From Pseudomonadota bacterium (GTDB lineage: Bacteria > Pseudomonadota > Gammaproteobacteria > Burkholderiales > Burkholderiaceae), in NCBI GenBank assembly GCA_021783435.1, contig JAJXUC010000009.1:1-56290 (forward strand): DNA of 56,290 nucleotides. Reading direction: 5' to 3'. The position numbers were made by a program, and so were the translations under genes. Below the pieces are notes generated by a model. That model did no database searches. It saw only the letters and a list, made by a program, of their open reading frames with translations, and was not told the origin of the DNA. Positions within the stretch are counted from its first letter, which is position 1; each line of letters begins with the position of its first letter. Of the stretch, positions 1,953 through 16,548 are shown piece by piece.

Positions 1953-2867
1953 ATGCACCGAGCCATTTGCCTGATCGGCGCGCCCACCGACATCGGCGCC
2001 GGCGCGCGCGGCGCGTCCATGGGCCCCGAGGCCATGCGCGTCGCGGGTCTGCGCGAAGCCCTGGAGGGGCTGGGCCTGCGGGTGGACGACCACGGCAACC
2101 TGAGTGGCCCCGCCAACCCCTGGCTGCCGCCGGTGAATGGCTGGCGCCACCTGCCCGAGACGGTGGTCTGGAACCGCACGGTCTACGCCGCATTGCGCGC
2201 GGCGCTGAGCGCGGGCGATCTGCCGGTGTTGCTCGGGGGCGATCATTCGTTGGCCATCGGCTCCATCAGCGCCGTGGCGGCCCATTGCCGCCAACAGGGG
2301 CGCGGCGTGCGCGTCCTGTGGCTGGACGCGCACGCCGACTTCAACACCAGCGCCATCACCCCCAGCGGCAACATTCACGGCATGCCGGTGGCCTGCCTTT
2401 GCGGCCATGGGCCGCGCGAACTGCTCGAGTTGTCGGGCCAGGTGCCCGCGATGGCGTCCGACAGCATCCGCCAGATCGGCATCCGCAGCGTGGACGCGGG
2501 CGAAAAGCGCCTGGTGCACAGCGTCGGCCTGGAGGTGTTCGACATGCGTTACATCGACGAGCACGGTATGCGCGAAACCATGGATCAAGCGCTAGCCGGC
2601 CTGGACGCCGACACCCATCTGCATGTCAGCTTCGATGTCGACTTTCTCGACCCCGGCATCGCACCCGGCGTCGGCACCACGGTGCGCGGCGGGCCAAGTT
2701 ACCGCGAGGCCCAGCTGTGCATGGAAATGATCGCCGACACCGGCCGCCTGGCCTCGCTCGACGTGATGGAACTCAACCCAGCATTCGACGTGCGCAACCG
2801 CACCGCCGAGCTTGCCGTGGATTTGATCGAGAGCCTGTTCGGCAAATCCACCCTGATGCGGGCCTGA
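1953..2867 (+). CDS. rocF: Arginase
   Basis: Ureohydrolase of 304 aa, predicted to hydrolyse L-arginine to ornithine and urea with a binuclear manganese centre. Metal-binding motifs are complete: GGDHS (95-99), DAHADFN (125-131) and SFDVDFLDP (226-234). The N-terminal GAPTDIGAGARGAS and the length match arginases better than agmatinases, though agmatinase or formiminoglutamase activity is not excluded. It starts 14 bp after the LOG gene and is convergent with the EamA transporter (6-bp gap). Arginase releases nitrogen, which fits the ammonium genes further on. Confidence 0.88.
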   Translation: MHRAICLIGAPTDIGAGARGASMGPEAMRVAGLREALEGLGLRVDDHGNLSGPANPWLPPVNGWRHLPETVVWNRTVYAALRAALSAGDLPVLLGGDHSLAIGSISAVAAHCRQQGRGVRVLWLDAHADFNTSAITPSGNIHGMPVACLCGHGPRELLELSGQVPAMASDSIRQIGIRSVDAGEKRLVHSVGLEVFDMRYIDEHGMRETMDQALAGLDADTHLHVSFDVDFLDPGIAPGVGTTVRGGPSYREAQLCMEMIADTGRLASLDVMELNPAFDVRNRTAELAVDLIESLFGKSTLMRA

Positions 2868-2873
2868 GCCCGT

Positions 2874-3806
2874 TCAAGGCCGCCTTGCGGTGTCGCCGTT
2901 CGGCGGCGACGCGGCTGGCGCCGGAACTGCGGCCGACGTGCCCAGCAACAGCAGCAAGGCCAGGGCGATGAGGACGATGCCCAAGCCCTCGTCGGCATTG
3001 GGCCTCTCTCCCAGCAGCGCCCAGGCCAGCAGGACGCCCGTCACCGGAATGGCAAGGCTCGACAGGCCGGCCACGCCGGCCGGCAAGCGCTGGACCACCA
3101 GCAGCCACAAGGTCCACGCCAGGCCCGAGGCCAGCACCACGTTGAAGGCCAGGGCAGCGAGGAAACCGGGCGTCCAGGTCACGGCGCGTTCGGGGATGAA
3201 GCCGGCCAGCAGCACCAGGCAAGCGGTGCCGAGCAACATTTGCCAGGCCGTCAGGCGCAGCGGCGACAGCGCTTTGCCCTGGTGTGCGAACAGGCGTTTC
3301 GCCGCCACGGTCGAGACCGCCCAGCTCATGCCGCCGCCGACCGCCATCCAGGCGCTCGTCAGGTCGACTTGTGCGCTCCACGGCTGCAGGATGAGCAGCA
3401 GTCCGATGGCCGCCAGCACCAGGCTGGCCACTTGCGGCGGGCGCAGGCGCTCGTGCAGCCAGGCCCAGGCCAGCAGCACGGTCCAGAACGGCATGGTGTA
3501 GGCCAGCAGCGCCGTTTTGCCGGCGCCACCATGCACCAGCGCCCATTGCGCCAGCGCGGTGAAGCCGGTGGTCTGCGTCAGGCCGATGAGCAGGGTGGGG
3601 CCGAGCGGCGGCGGCGCCAGACGCTCGCCCCGCAGCCGCAGCAGCAGGAACAGCACTGCGGTGCCACCGGCATAGCGCAAGGCGGAGAAATAGAACGGGC
3701 CGCTGTCCAGCATCGCCAGTTTCATCACGATCCAGTTGCTGCTCCAGATCAGGGTGAGCGCCAGCAGGGCGAAGACGGCGGTTTTGCGCGAGGGATGTGC
3801 CGACAT
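2874..3806 (-). CDS. EamA/DMT-family transporter
   Basis: Inner-membrane permease of 310 aa with about ten hydrophobic segments arranged as two EamA (DUF6) repeats, the drug/metabolite transporter fold used by amino-acid and metabolite exporters such as RhaT or YdcZ relatives. It opens with a membrane helix containing TLIWSSNWIVMK, typical of the family. The cargo is not predictable. The ATG at 3806 was chosen because the first helix follows immediately; an in-frame ATG at 3824 is an alternative. No good Shine-Dalgarno precedes 3806: a perfect 8-bp inverted repeat occupies that space (see 3807-3892), so translation may be structure-controlled. Confidence 0.85.
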   Translation of the reverse strand: MSAHPSRKTAVFALLALTLIWSSNWIVMKLAMLDSGPFYFSALRYAGGTAVLFLLLRLRGERLAPPPLGPTLLIGLTQTTGFTALAQWALVHGGAGKTALLAYTMPFWTVLLAWAWLHERLRPPQVASLVLAAIGLLLILQPWSAQVDLTSAWMAVGGGMSWAVSTVAAKRLFAHQGKALSPLRLTAWQMLLGTACLVLLAGFIPERAVTWTPGFLAALAFNVVLASGLAWTLWLLVVQRLPAGVAGLSSLAIPVTGVLLAWALLGERPNADEGLGIVLIALALLLLLGTSAAVPAPAASPPNGDTARRP

Positions 3807-3892
3807 GGATGCAAAAGCTTGCATCCTAGGCGGAACTTGGCCGCCCGGTTGGAGACCTAGAATGAGGGGCAGTGCAAACGGACGCACTGCCC
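3807..3892 (-). promoter_or_regulatory. Three successive inverted repeats in the EamA leader
   Basis: Within 86 bp upstream of the EamA start there are three hairpin-forming repeats: GGATGCAA-AAGC-TTGCATCC at 3807-3826 (perfect 8-bp arms touching the start codon), GGCGG-N7-CCGCC at 3829-3845, and GGGCAGTGC-N8-GCACTGCCC at 3867-3892 (perfect 9-bp arms). None is followed by a T-run, so a simple terminator is unlikely. They could be operators or a structured 5' leader that sequesters the ribosome site. I did not recognise a known riboswitch. Confidence 0.5.
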
Positions 3893-3980
3893 TGATGAAG
3901 TGCCGTGCACGCACGTTGAAGGTTTGCAGCGTGTGAATCCATGTTTCTGAAGAGGAAACCGGAGCCATCCGGAATCAGCC

Positions 3981-13399: not shown

Positions 13400-14800
13400 A
13401 TGAAAAAGTTTCTCGTCACGATTGCGCTGAGCATGGCGGCCCTGGCCGGCCCTGGCAGCGCCTGGGCTCAGACCGCCAGCAGCCCAGCCGCGGCAGCGCC
13501 CGCGGCGGCAGCACCCGCAGCAGCGCCAGCGGCCCCTGCTGCGGCGCCGCCTGCAAAGGAAGCCATCAGCTCGGATCCGAATGCCAGCATCAACCCTGGT
13601 GATACGGCTTGGATGCTCACCTCCACGGCGCTCGTGTTGATGATGACCATCCCTGGGCTGGGCCTGTTTTATGCCGGCATGGTGCGCAAAAAGAATTTGC
13701 TCGACACCCTGGCGCAGAGCTTCGTCGTCACGTGCCTGGTCACCGTGCTCTGGTATGTCATCGGCTACACCTTGGCATTCTCGGACGGCGGGCCCTACAT
13801 AGGCGACCTGTCGCGATTCCTCTTGCATGGCATGGGGAAATTCACGGTCTCGGATCTGTCGGGAACGATTCCAGAATCGGTCTACATGACGTTCCAGATG
13901 ACCTTTGCGATCATCACCCCAGCCCTCATCGCCGGCTCGTTCGCTGAGCGCATGAAGTTCTCCGCGCTGATTTGGTTCATGAGCCTGTGGCTGATTTTTG
14001 TCTACTGCCCGATTGCTCACTGGGTCTGGTCCGCCAATGGCTGGCTGGGCAAGCTGGGTGCCCTCGACTTCGCCGGCGGCACCGTGGTTCACCTCAACGC
14101 CGGTGTTGCGGGCATCGTGACCGCGCTGTTCCTGGGTAAGCGCGTGGGCTACGGCAAAGAGCCGATGCCGGCGCACAACCTGGCCTTCACCATGATCGGC
14201 GCCGCGCTGCTGTGGGTGGGCTGGTTCGGCTTCAACGCGGGTTCTGCCGTCAACGCTGGCGGTCGCGCCGGCATGGCCATGGCCACGACCCAAATCGCGA
14301 CGGCAGCCGCTGCGCTGGCCTGGATGTTTGCCGAATGGGCCGCGCGCGGCAAGCCGACCCTGCTGGGTTTGTGCTCAGGCGCAGTCGCTGGCCTGGTGGC
14401 CATCACGCCGGCCTCGGGCTTCGTTGATCCGACGGGCGCCGTCATCATCGGCATCGCTGTCGGCGTGGTGTGTTTCTGGACCGCGACCTACATGAAGAAC
14501 ATGTTCGGGTACGACGATTCATTGGATGCTTTCGGCGTGCACGGGATCGGTGGTGCGCTGGGTGCGATCCTCACCGGTGTTTTTGCAGTCAAGGCCATCG
14601 GAGGCACGGCCGGCCTGCTGGAAGGCAATCCGGGCCAAGTCATCAAGCAGCTGGTGGATGTCGGTTCGGTCATCGTCTGGGACGGTGTCGTGACCTACAT
14701 CATCCTGAAGGTCATCGACATGACCATCGGTGTGCGTGTGTCTGAAGAAGACGAGCGCGAAGGTTTGGACATCAGTCAACATGGAGAGCAAGTTGCCTGA
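13400..14800 (+). CDS. amtB: Ammonium transporter AmtB with signal peptide
   Basis: 466-aa ammonium channel with a cleavable signal peptide (MKKFLVTIALSMAALAGPGSAWA, cleavage likely after residue 23), an Ala/Pro-rich spacer to about residue 55, then the 11-helix Amt core. The twin pore histidines are His231 (DFAGGTVVHLNAG) and His381 (FGVHGIGGALG). The C-terminal tail (GVRVSEEDEREGLD) keeps the motif that contacts GlnK. It is the last gene of the porin-glnK-amtB operon and ends at an intrinsic terminator 67 bp later. Confidence 0.95.
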   Translation: MKKFLVTIALSMAALAGPGSAWAQTASSPAAAAPAAAAPAAAPAAPAAAPPAKEAISSDPNASINPGDTAWMLTSTALVLMMTIPGLGLFYAGMVRKKNLLDTLAQSFVVTCLVTVLWYVIGYTLAFSDGGPYIGDLSRFLLHGMGKFTVSDLSGTIPESVYMTFQMTFAIITPALIAGSFAERMKFSALIWFMSLWLIFVYCPIAHWVWSANGWLGKLGALDFAGGTVVHLNAGVAGIVTALFLGKRVGYGKEPMPAHNLAFTMIGAALLWVGWFGFNAGSAVNAGGRAGMAMATTQIATAAAALAWMFAEWAARGKPTLLGLCSGAVAGLVAITPASGFVDPTGAVIIGIAVGVVCFWTATYMKNMFGYDDSLDAFGVHGIGGALGAILTGVFAVKAIGGTAGLLEGNPGQVIKQLVDVGSVIVWDGVVTYIILKVIDMTIGVRVSEEDEREGLDISQHGEQVA

Positions 14801-14867
14801 CCCACGACAAGTTGGCTTCAACCCGGGGTGATCCTCTCGCTCCGGCCGCATCTCCAGCGGACTGTTC

Positions 14868-14893
14868 AGCCCGGCCTCAAGCCGGGCTTTTTT
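14868..14893 (+). terminator. Intrinsic terminator of the amtB operon
   Basis: Perfect stem AGCCCGGC-CTCAA-GCCGGGCT followed directly by six Ts (14888-14893). It ends one base before the left copy of the 14-bp repeat that borders the ATPase insertion, so the insertion sits just behind the operon's end. Confidence 0.9.
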
Positions 14894-14907
14894 ATGGAAC
14901 GCCGCCA
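14894..14907 (+). repeat. 14-bp direct repeat, left copy
   Basis: ATGGAACGCCGCCA, identical to 16535-16548. The flanking bases differ on both sides, so the identity is exactly 14 bp. It starts immediately after the T-run of the amtB terminator. Confidence 0.9.
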
Positions 14908-14928
14908 TTATGTCTCTGACGCACATAG
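14907..14928 (+). repeat. Left inverted end of the ATPase element
   Basis: The 22-bp segment follows the shared pattern ATTATGTNTCTGANGCACA plus NAG. It pairs in inverted orientation with 16509-16530 (mismatches at positions 8, 14 and 20). It overlaps the last base of the 14-bp direct repeat. Confidence 0.7.
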
Positions 14929-14973
14929 AGAAAAATCAGTGACTTATACGCGCCCCCGCGCTGACGGCGGAAC

Positions 14974-16128
14974 TCAAGCCAGCAGGCCCTTGCTGCGCAT
15001 GAGATCGACGAGGCCTTGCTCCTCGAGGGCGTACTCCCCGTGCGCGGCTCGCCACACGAGCGATTTCGCCTGCAGAGCTTCGAGGGTGCTCTGAACGTTG
15101 GGGACATTGACTTTGTCGACGCTATCCGGATCCAGCTGGGCCAGCTGCTCGGAGTACGCCTTGAGCGACGCGACCGCGTAAGGGGTGTAGGCGTCTCCCT
15201 GAATCGCTAACACGCGCAACACCACACCCTGTAGTGGCGTGAGTGCCCGCACGACCTTGAGCATGGCCTCGTCCGATTCCTCGATCGCCGCGGCCACGGC
15301 GACCTCGAAGGCGTCGTCTAGGCGCCCGGCGGGGGGCAGCACGCCGTTGTCATCGGGCAGGTCGCCGAGCGCTTGCATGAGCACTTCCGGGCGCCAAGCG
15401 GCGCGCTCGAAGCTTCGCAGGGTGCGGTCTACGTCCAGCTGGGTGGGCAGGCCGGCGTTGTCCACAAACCACCTCACATAGTCGACGCCCAACGGCGGAA
15501 AGGCGCGCATCATGGCCTTGTAGAACGCCTGGTCCTTGCTGGCGCGCAGGATGGCCAGCTTGGGGCGGCTAGAGCCCGTGGCTACGATGCGCAGACCAAA
15601 ATGATGGGTACTGTTGAGCTCATCGCGGGCCGCCTTCAATGCGAACAGCGCGTTGTTGCCTTCGTCGGTGGTCGCGGCGTGCTGAGCCTCGTCGATCATC
15701 AGGACGATGGGCGCCTTGACGCGATCGGACAGGGCCCCCAGCGCCTGGCTCAGGCTCACACCGGTACCTAAGCCCACCTTGGCCACATCGAAGCTCAGCC
15801 CCCCGACGTTGACCTTGTCCATACCGGCTTTGCGCGCCATCTTGAGCACGAAGCCGTCATCCTGCGCAAACGCGCTGCGCACGAGCGCGACGATCGCCGA
15901 ACCGGGTTCGATCGCCTTGTCGGCCCATAGGTCGACGTAGAGCACGGCTGCGCCGCGCTTCTCGAGCGCGGGCATCAGGTCTTCGCGAACGAACGTCGAC
16001 TTGCCGGTGCGCCGCGGTGCGGCCAGGAACAGGCCGGACCGCGTCGGCGCGAGAGGTGCCTCGTTGAGGATGACGTTGGCCAAGTCGTTGGCCAAGTCGG
16101 GGCGATGGAAGAACGGGTCGGTAGCCAT
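14974..16128 (-). CDS. AAA+ ATPase with C-terminal winged-helix-like region (archaeal-ATPase type)
   Basis: 384-aa ATPase. Walker A is APRRTGKST (37-45), Walker B IVLMIDEAQH (141-150), and a sensor-1-like VATGSSR follows at 182-188. The order FLAAPRRTGKSTF, VLYVDLWAD, DEAQHA, RDELNSTHHFGLRIVATGSS resembles the AAA_ATPase_2/AAA_22 group. From about residue 295 a region ALTPLQGVVLRVLA...NVQSTLEALQAKSLVWR looks like a winged helix, suggesting nucleic-acid or protein binding. No signal peptide or membrane segment. Its neighbours are metabolic genes and it stands alone inside a repeat-bounded insertion. It could be a mobile-element ATPase, a defence or regulatory NTPase; no function can be assigned. 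The start at 16128 lacks a good ribosome site. Confidence 0.8.
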   Translation of the reverse strand: MATDPFFHRPDLANDLANVILNEAPLAPTRSGLFLAAPRRTGKSTFVREDLMPALEKRGAAVLYVDLWADKAIEPGSAIVALVRSAFAQDDGFVLKMARKAGMDKVNVGGLSFDVAKVGLGTGVSLSQALGALSDRVKAPIVLMIDEAQHAATTDEGNNALFALKAARDELNSTHHFGLRIVATGSSRPKLAILRASKDQAFYKAMMRAFPPLGVDYVRWFVDNAGLPTQLDVDRTLRSFERAAWRPEVLMQALGDLPDDNGVLPPAGRLDDAFEVAVAAAIEESDEAMLKVVRALTPLQGVVLRVLAIQGDAYTPYAVASLKAYSEQLAQLDPDSVDKVNVPNVQSTLEALQAKSLVWRAAHGEYALEEQGLVDLMRSKGLLA

Positions 16129-16534
16129 GTCAGAAGTCTGCAGAACGGATGGGGATGGCGATTATGGTATTTTATACCTCTATATACAGCCATATGGTCG
16201 ATCCGAAGGTGGTTGACATCAAGGCAGTGGCCGCGACCACCGACAAGAGTTAGGGTGTTTTATGGTGCTCTATACCGATCATGACCCTGGTGCCTCGGGT
16301 GTCCGAAGTCCTGAGCGTTGCTGTGGCTGACCCCGCGCAGCTGCCGGCCTAAGGCATCCGGGAGCGCTACGAGCGCACCGCCGAAAACCTCGTGGCACCG
16401 TGCGAGCTGCGGCTGCAGGGCACGGTCTTCGCGAGTGCGAACGGGCGCCCGGACTGCACAGGCCGCTCGAGCCCGCGCTGGCCAGCGTGCTGGCGCCCTG
16501 TCCCGGGCCTTTGTGCATCAGATACATAATTGCG
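16129..16534. other. Degenerate right part of the ATPase element
   Basis: About 400 bp upstream of the ATPase gene with no intact gene. It is locally AT-rich at 16160-16200. The 16-bp sequences at 16163-16178 (TATGGTATTTTATACC) and 16261-16276 (TATGGTGCTCTATACC) agree at 13 positions and both open short plus-strand frames beginning MVFYT (29 codons) and MVLYT (22 codons). The rest reads as an interrupted frame with a stop in GCC-TAA-GGC near 16350. It may be the ruin of a former gene or a pair of operators. Confidence 0.45.
16509..16530 (-). repeat. Right inverted end of the ATPase element
   Basis: Read on the minus strand it begins ATTATGTATCTGATGCACA, matching the left end at 19 of 22 positions. 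Four bases (TGCG) separate it from the right copy of the 14-bp direct repeat. Confidence 0.7.
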
Positions 16535-16548
16535 ATGGAACGCCGCCA
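16535..16548 (+). repeat. 14-bp direct repeat, right copy
   Basis: ATGGAACGCCGCCA, identical to 14894-14907. It is followed by the 115-bp upstream region of gshA. Confidence 0.9.

Follow-up and report, generated by a model that had tools for sequence, protein, structure and literature searches.

A probable IS1595-type cassette carrying an AAA+ ATPase gene at the 3' end of a host terminator

Introduction

Group IIC introns insert behind intrinsic terminators, and Tn7-like elements insert just behind a gene, near its terminator, with one fixed gene, a 5-bp duplication and several transposition proteins. Here we analyse an insertion that carries a single gene, for an AAA+ ATPase, and lies directly behind a host terminator at positions 14903 to 16534 of contig JAJXUC010000009.1 from a member of the Burkholderiaceae; the 56,290 bases of this contig that were analysed are called the window below. 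Group IIC introns are retroelements that move through RNA, whereas we find DNA ends, a target duplication and, in a related element, an IS1595-type transposase. Unlike Tn7-like elements, the family that shares these ends uses different genes, and no transposition proteins of that kind were seen.

Mobile insertion cassettes (MICs) and transporter insertion sequences (ISs) are described in sections of the ISsaga paper (PMC3129680), which credits transporter ISs to the IS1595 family paper. As characterized in those sections, MICs resemble the window element in having IS-type inverted ends, a target duplication and a passenger gene but no transposase, and transporter ISs resemble locus L083 of our survey, which has passengers together with a transposase. 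Unlike either, the end family studied here carries a varied set of cargo, duplicates 9 bp in most cases, is placed precisely at terminator ends, stacks at one site and has small unclassified proteins beside the transposase. The passages of PMC9208149 covered report that IS1595 elements are over-represented between genes of one direction and hold no statement on insertion at terminators. By title and abstract, no description of IS1595-type elements at terminators was found in a limited body of open-access literature whose scope did not extend to the IS1595 family paper. The outline of the element, an IS-derived cassette with a passenger gene, is thus ordinary; what is unusual is the precise and repeated insertion at terminator ends by an IS1595-type group.

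Results

Positions 14903 to 16534 very probably represent a non-autonomous transposable cassette with IS1595-type inverted ends, in which the AAA+ ATPase cargo replaces the transposase gene. The original prediction, made from the letters of the window, described a lone ATPase gene between exact 14-bp direct repeats and 19/22-bp inverted ends, placed exactly behind a terminator, and these observations were all borne out. The 14-mer ATGGAACGCCGCCA at 14894-14907 and 16535-16548 has no other exact copy in the window, where matches with up to three mismatches are about as frequent as expected by chance (13, counting both exact copies, vs 11.2). Counting inward from 14903 and 16534, the inverted ends agree at 22/26 bases, a longer match that contains the predicted one. 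The interval holds one intact 384-aa open reading frame (ORF), and a family scan recognised no transposase among its proteins, which did not include the decayed frame at 16281-16530. A terminator-like hairpin and T-run end at 14893, directly before the duplication. No tRNA genes were found in the window. The boundary features are as follows.

14903..16534: element proper, 1632 bp, a non-autonomous cassette with 26-bp inverted ends; boundaries from the empty sites L108-L110 and the second insertion in L005
14894..14902, forward strand: left copy of the 9-bp target-site duplication ATGGAACGC
16535..16543, forward strand: right copy of the 9-bp target-site duplication ATGGAACGC
16544..16548, forward strand: CGCCA, native target sequence equal by chance to the left tip of the element, which stretches the repeat to 14 bp (from empty sites L108, L109 and L110)
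14903..14928, forward strand: left inverted end CGCCATTATGTCTCTGACGCACATAG
16509..16534, reverse strand: right inverted end CGCAATTATGTATCTGATGCACAAAG
14869..14893, forward strand: host intrinsic terminator behind the ORF at 13400-14800; its T-tract ends directly before the duplication

The junctions read ATGGAACGC + CGCCATTATG ... CATAATTGCG + ATGGAACGC, a 9-bp duplication. Alignment with related genomes, the check proposed with the original prediction, revealed the empty site with a single copy in three genomes of the same genus: L108 in G005, L109 in G021 and L110 in G028, with 88%, 87% and 89% identity across the joined flanks (265-293 bp over the junction). A fourth empty site, L111, comes from T. 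delicata; its alignment has 76% identity and 15 gap positions. The empty-site letters are ATGGCGCGC-CGCCG in L108 and L109 and ATGGGGCGC-CGTCA in L110. Because CGCCG, CGCCG and CGTCA stand there in the empty sites, the CGCCA that follows the second copy on its right belongs to the host, and the final five bases of the 14-mer are therefore a coincidence. The 14-bp repeat is thus a 9-bp target duplication plus 5 bp of coincidental identity.

A second insertion of the same element is present in T. delicata DSM 16361 (L005) and in a metagenome-assembled genome (L004), 95% identical over 1642 bp and at a different place from that in the window. In L005, the inverted ends start with CGCCATGATG on both sides, with the perfect duplication TGAGATGCC outside them. 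The flank at 14100-14902 of the window, which we take to be an ammonium-transporter-like ORF, is only 76% identical to T. delicata, which indicates, against 95% for the element, that the element moved between species. The window flank matches G005 at 92%, so the window can be placed, by inference, in Thiomonas. Partial copies of the ATPase element were found in L089 (90% over 422 bp, at the same site as L005 and ending at the contig end), in L091 (160 bp) and in L086 (247 bp at 79%).

The ends are not confined to the ATPase element. Allowing up to 2 mismatches, 15/28 genomes of the genus contain the end pattern GCCATNATGTNTCTGWTGCACA, and 0/28 contain its reversed control. Among 399 genomes of the family, the 23-base pattern CGCCATNATGTCTCTGATGCACA (up to 2 mismatches) matches in four, namely T. 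delicata, the same-genus G004 and, with single 2-mismatch matches, G285 and G385. Nine complete elements were measured (L004 was left out, sharing the site of L005): the window element (1632 bp), L005 (1636 bp), L084 (1881 bp), L083 (11,541 bp) and five that measure 762-768 bp and carry a small gene pair (L059, L060, L061, L075 and L091). Duplications are perfect at 9 bp in six, 8 bp in two and 9 bp with one mismatch in one, and the ends have 0-2 mismatches to the 23-base consensus; each window end has one, to the consensus with two free positions. Four unrelated cargo sets lie within this one end family: the ATPase; a ParE-type toxin-antitoxin pair (PaaA2 antitoxin, 5.8e-10; ParE toxin, 7.9e-17; from a scan of blended representative sequences); a TnpB-like protein in L084 of G004 (element 2029-3909; OrfB_IS605 6.1e-20, Cas12f1-like_TNB 3.3e-11); and type I restriction-modification genes with an IS1595 transposase in L083. 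We observed separately that L084 2029-3909, with ends of this family, holds a lone TnpB-like gene and lies past the end of a gene, with no recognised terminator.

A second end type, GGTGTTAAYAAGCAGA, is present in 11/28 genus genomes, and L165 has one of these ends at a distance of about 1.5 kb from an IS1595-like transposase, with no second end found. As a side observation, GGTGTT-ended cassettes of 750-800 bp (L085 4481-5236, L161 142-899, L150 716-1517 and L151 1526-2325) carry other toxin-antitoxin-like pairs, judged by eye, with a duplication that is clear in three and imperfect in L150.

The candidate mover comes from L083, an 11.54-kb element of G022 whose two ends match the 23-base consensus without a mismatch and which has an IS1595-family transposase inside (PF12762 2.8e-37, zinc ribbon PF12760 3.3e-12). 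Its cargo, according to the scan, includes HsdM and HsdR, and an HsdS-like gene was recognised by eye. The reading that best fits the window copy is a non-autonomous MIC of the IS1595 type, and we infer that it was mobilised in trans by an IS1595-type transposase. An element mobilised in trans with the ATPase as its target-selecting part had been proposed; the first part stands, since the element inserted without a transposase of its own and its ends are common to the transposase-bearing L083, making movement in trans likely, but the second is not supported. The alternative given in that prediction, that the ATPase is a cargo gene, is supported.

The insertion in the window is one of several at terminators. 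A terminator was scored as a GC-rich hairpin followed by at least 4 T within 2 nt. By this measure, 8/9 complete elements have, on one side, a terminator with its T-tract ending 8-10 nt away from their edge (window 9 nt, L005 8, L059 10, L060 8, L061 8, L075 9, L091 10 and L083 10). A looser condition (7-14 nt, either side) is true at 290/177,003 positions, or 0.16%, in a background of 12 sequences that takes genic and intergenic DNA together and in part contains these insertions. The empty sites already have the window terminator, which is thus the host's. Which cassette end faces the terminator varies. At GGTGTT-type ends, a terminator T-run lies 4-11 nt away at 7/22, with one side judged and several ends facing another element. 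Elements also stack at one site: one 8-bp copy of the duplication is all that lies between a toxin-antitoxin cassette and an ATPase-type end in L091, and a spacer of 9-10 nt separates CGCC-type from second-type ends in L083, L085 and L167. This spacer is the duplication belonging to the CGCC element in L083 and to the second-type element in L085; in L085 and L167, the other end of the CGCC element was not seen.

Related transposases were found beyond the genus. At E 1e-30 or better, 13/399 family genomes (G022 included) gave 15 matches, and with another query 9/399 genomes of the order (G407 included) gave 10 matches at 1e-35 or better. We examined 23 loci for ends: 14 family matches (G022's excluded), one G005 locus and 8 order matches (G407 and G431 excluded). 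Six of these, all outside the genus, hold intact transposons of 5-12 kb whose ends match at 20-22/22 bases and whose duplications are 8 bp long (control 0). When a duplication was not required, the other 17 loci added L224, with a one-mismatch duplication, and L209 of G005, with its right end at the contig edge and its left end behind a T-run; the remaining end pairs look like chance, and most transposase loci gave no transposon ends. A terminator stands 8-10 nt from the edge in three of the six intact transposons (L197, L207 and L208); L204 is terminator-like by eye only, and L200 and L201 have none. Their cargo includes an AlwI-type restriction enzyme and a D12 methyltransferase in L201 and a Fic-domain protein in L207.

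Small proteins recur beside these transposases. Two in L083 are related to each other (32%), related ones occur in L165 and L204 (35%), and an HTH-like protein (by eye) is common to L083 and L201 (56% over 73 residues); between the small proteins of L083 and L201, BLASTP gave no alignment. Eight small proteins inside or beside transposons had no Pfam match at E 0.001-0.01, in a scan that left out L083 12988-13497, L204 11080-11628 and L166 4532-5068, and two Pfam matches below the cut-off were obtained for a similar protein (13680-14222) encoded just beyond the L083 element. Close relatives of one small protein amount to only 4 proteins. By eye, the small proteins at L165 1327-2809, L083 12450-13497, L166 4532-5068 and L204 11080-11628 appear to be coiled-coil and winged-helix-like. 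It is possible that such proteins act as targeting factors.

The cargo gene of the window element and its surroundings comprise the following features.

14974..16128, reverse strand: cargo gene, 384-aa AAA+ ATPase with a C-terminal winged helix (ORC/Cdc6-like fold)
16160..16189, reverse strand: array of degenerate repeats immediately upstream of the ATPase, at the position where homologues have 11-bp CTATAATC-type arrays (by eye)
16250..16276, reverse strand: second degenerate upstream repeat array (by eye)
16281..16530, forward strand: decayed divergent reading frame, with an early stop in the window and open further in L005 (by eye)

The 384-aa ATPase gave weak AAA matches below the cut-off, no NCBIfam family at E 1, no PDB sequence match at E 10 and no match in phage records. 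Its identity to the archaeal ORC2/Cdc6 and SSO1545/PABY2304 ATPases is 14-18% and, unlike the archaeal ORC2/Cdc6 setting, no replication gene was seen beside it in the window element. The frame is intact, with dS 0.061 and dN/dS 0.23 vs L005, and has been kept in the window while the upstream divergent frame has an early stop. A defence-model scan matched only mad8 (4.1e-4, over 76 residues). Tandem 11-bp arrays with TATAAT-like boxes lie just upstream of the ATPase in L007-L012, L014, L016, L003 and L172. When the arrays were considered as possible genome-wide operators, 9/11 genomes or records had matches, and all the matches listed lie immediately upstream of the ATPase; at up to 1 mismatch there was none in T. 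delicata or plasmid pRK1-2, and the reversed control gave one match in each of 3/11. We also observed that a BREX-2 operon of the Polaromonas plasmid pPNAP01 has a homologue (L002 5992-7161) between its pglW and pglX genes.

At 11 homologue loci outside the genus (L001-L003, L006-L012 and L018), each spanning only some kilobases, the ends of the window element were absent around the ATPase at up to 5 mismatches; the fragment L017 was also negative, and L013-L016 were left out. No transposase is annotated beside the homologues in six plasmid stretches, for which the gene table is incomplete, and none was recognised in the window element. Homologues without conserved ends had been named as a finding that would speak against a mobile element: the 11 loci show this for the ATPase gene taken by itself, whereas the element does have conserved ends.

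Discussion

Our results suggest the following course of events. The element entered a site left empty in relatives, duplicating 9 bp, and ends of the same kind, flanked by 8-9-bp duplications, enclose other cargo in the genus. A transposase like that of the G022 element may act in trans on the window ends. As a pattern, the insertions lie at the 3' end of the T-tract of a host terminator. Since insertion falls at this position, the machinery probably reads the terminator, either as a DNA hairpin with its T-tract or as a terminating complex. The ATPase would be a passenger, dispensable for transposition, and is probably an autoregulated DNA-binding ATPase with a putative role of benefit to the host, perhaps in defence.

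Two other readings concern the identity of the machinery. An att-type element, placed by a site-specific recombinase at a 14-bp core, would agree with the exact 14-bp repeat of the window, which the original prediction took as a sign of an att-type site or of a new class of element. The duplication is only 9 bp in the empty sites, and other copies carry different, unrelated 8-9-bp duplications, as does the second copy of the ATPase element; these observations rule such a site out, and we regard its probability as practically negligible. That the ATPase belongs to the transposition or targeting machinery, in the manner of TnsC, MuB or IstB, is very unlikely: the same ends enclose four unrelated cargo sets, which speaks against the ATPase as the target-selecting part that had been proposed, and they were not found at the 11 homologue loci outside the genus. 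The ORC/Cdc6-like AAA+ ATPase is very probably cargo rather than a targeting factor.

The placement itself allows two accounts. Active targeting of terminators by these elements is what we infer, and we see about an even chance that they form a lineage of IS1595-type transposons and cassettes with a dedicated terminator-recognising mechanism, inserting at the 3' end of the T-tract, perhaps by way of the small proteins, so that terminators serve as a shared docking place where toxin-antitoxin, restriction-modification, TnpB and ATPase cassettes stack without harm to the host. Alternatively, the pattern could reflect survival, with insertions elsewhere lost through broken genes or promoters and those behind terminators being harmless. 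Terminator ends are generally harmless places, and the transposons L200, L201 and L224, of the same transposase group, have no terminator alongside. However, selection alone would scatter insertions across intergenic space, whereas the T-tract distances in eight elements are only 8-10 nt, and neighbouring elements abut with a single 8-10-nt spacer that is the duplication of a complete element (L091 and L083) or of a second-type element (L085). We thus consider survival alone unlikely. Several points nevertheless weigh against the targeting account and the proposed mover. L084 has no terminator alongside, the cautious count of elements at terminators is 7/8 because L061 and L075 may be one ancestral insertion, and at further single or stacked CGCC-type ends, with one side visible, a T-run lies 8-11 nt away at only 4/14. 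The G022 transposase is matched in 6/28 genus genomes at E 0.001 and lies between these ends only in G022; the best matches in T. delicata are weak (1.7e-16) and far from the ends, and the search covered other genomes of the genus, the window's own genome not being among them. In addition, IS1595 elements give 8-bp duplications, which we observed in L060, L091 and the six intact transposons outside the genus, while L083 and most cassettes have 9 bp.

In conclusion, this analysis shows that, on the evidence of its ends alone, a single-gene island without a transposase can be assigned to a likely mover. If the targeting is real, these elements would be DNA transposons that choose the ends of transcription units through terminators, a counterpart of group IIC introns. 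This would help to explain how defence-type and toxin-antitoxin genes gather at harmless spots, and it would offer a testable route for inserting DNA behind genes without breaking them.
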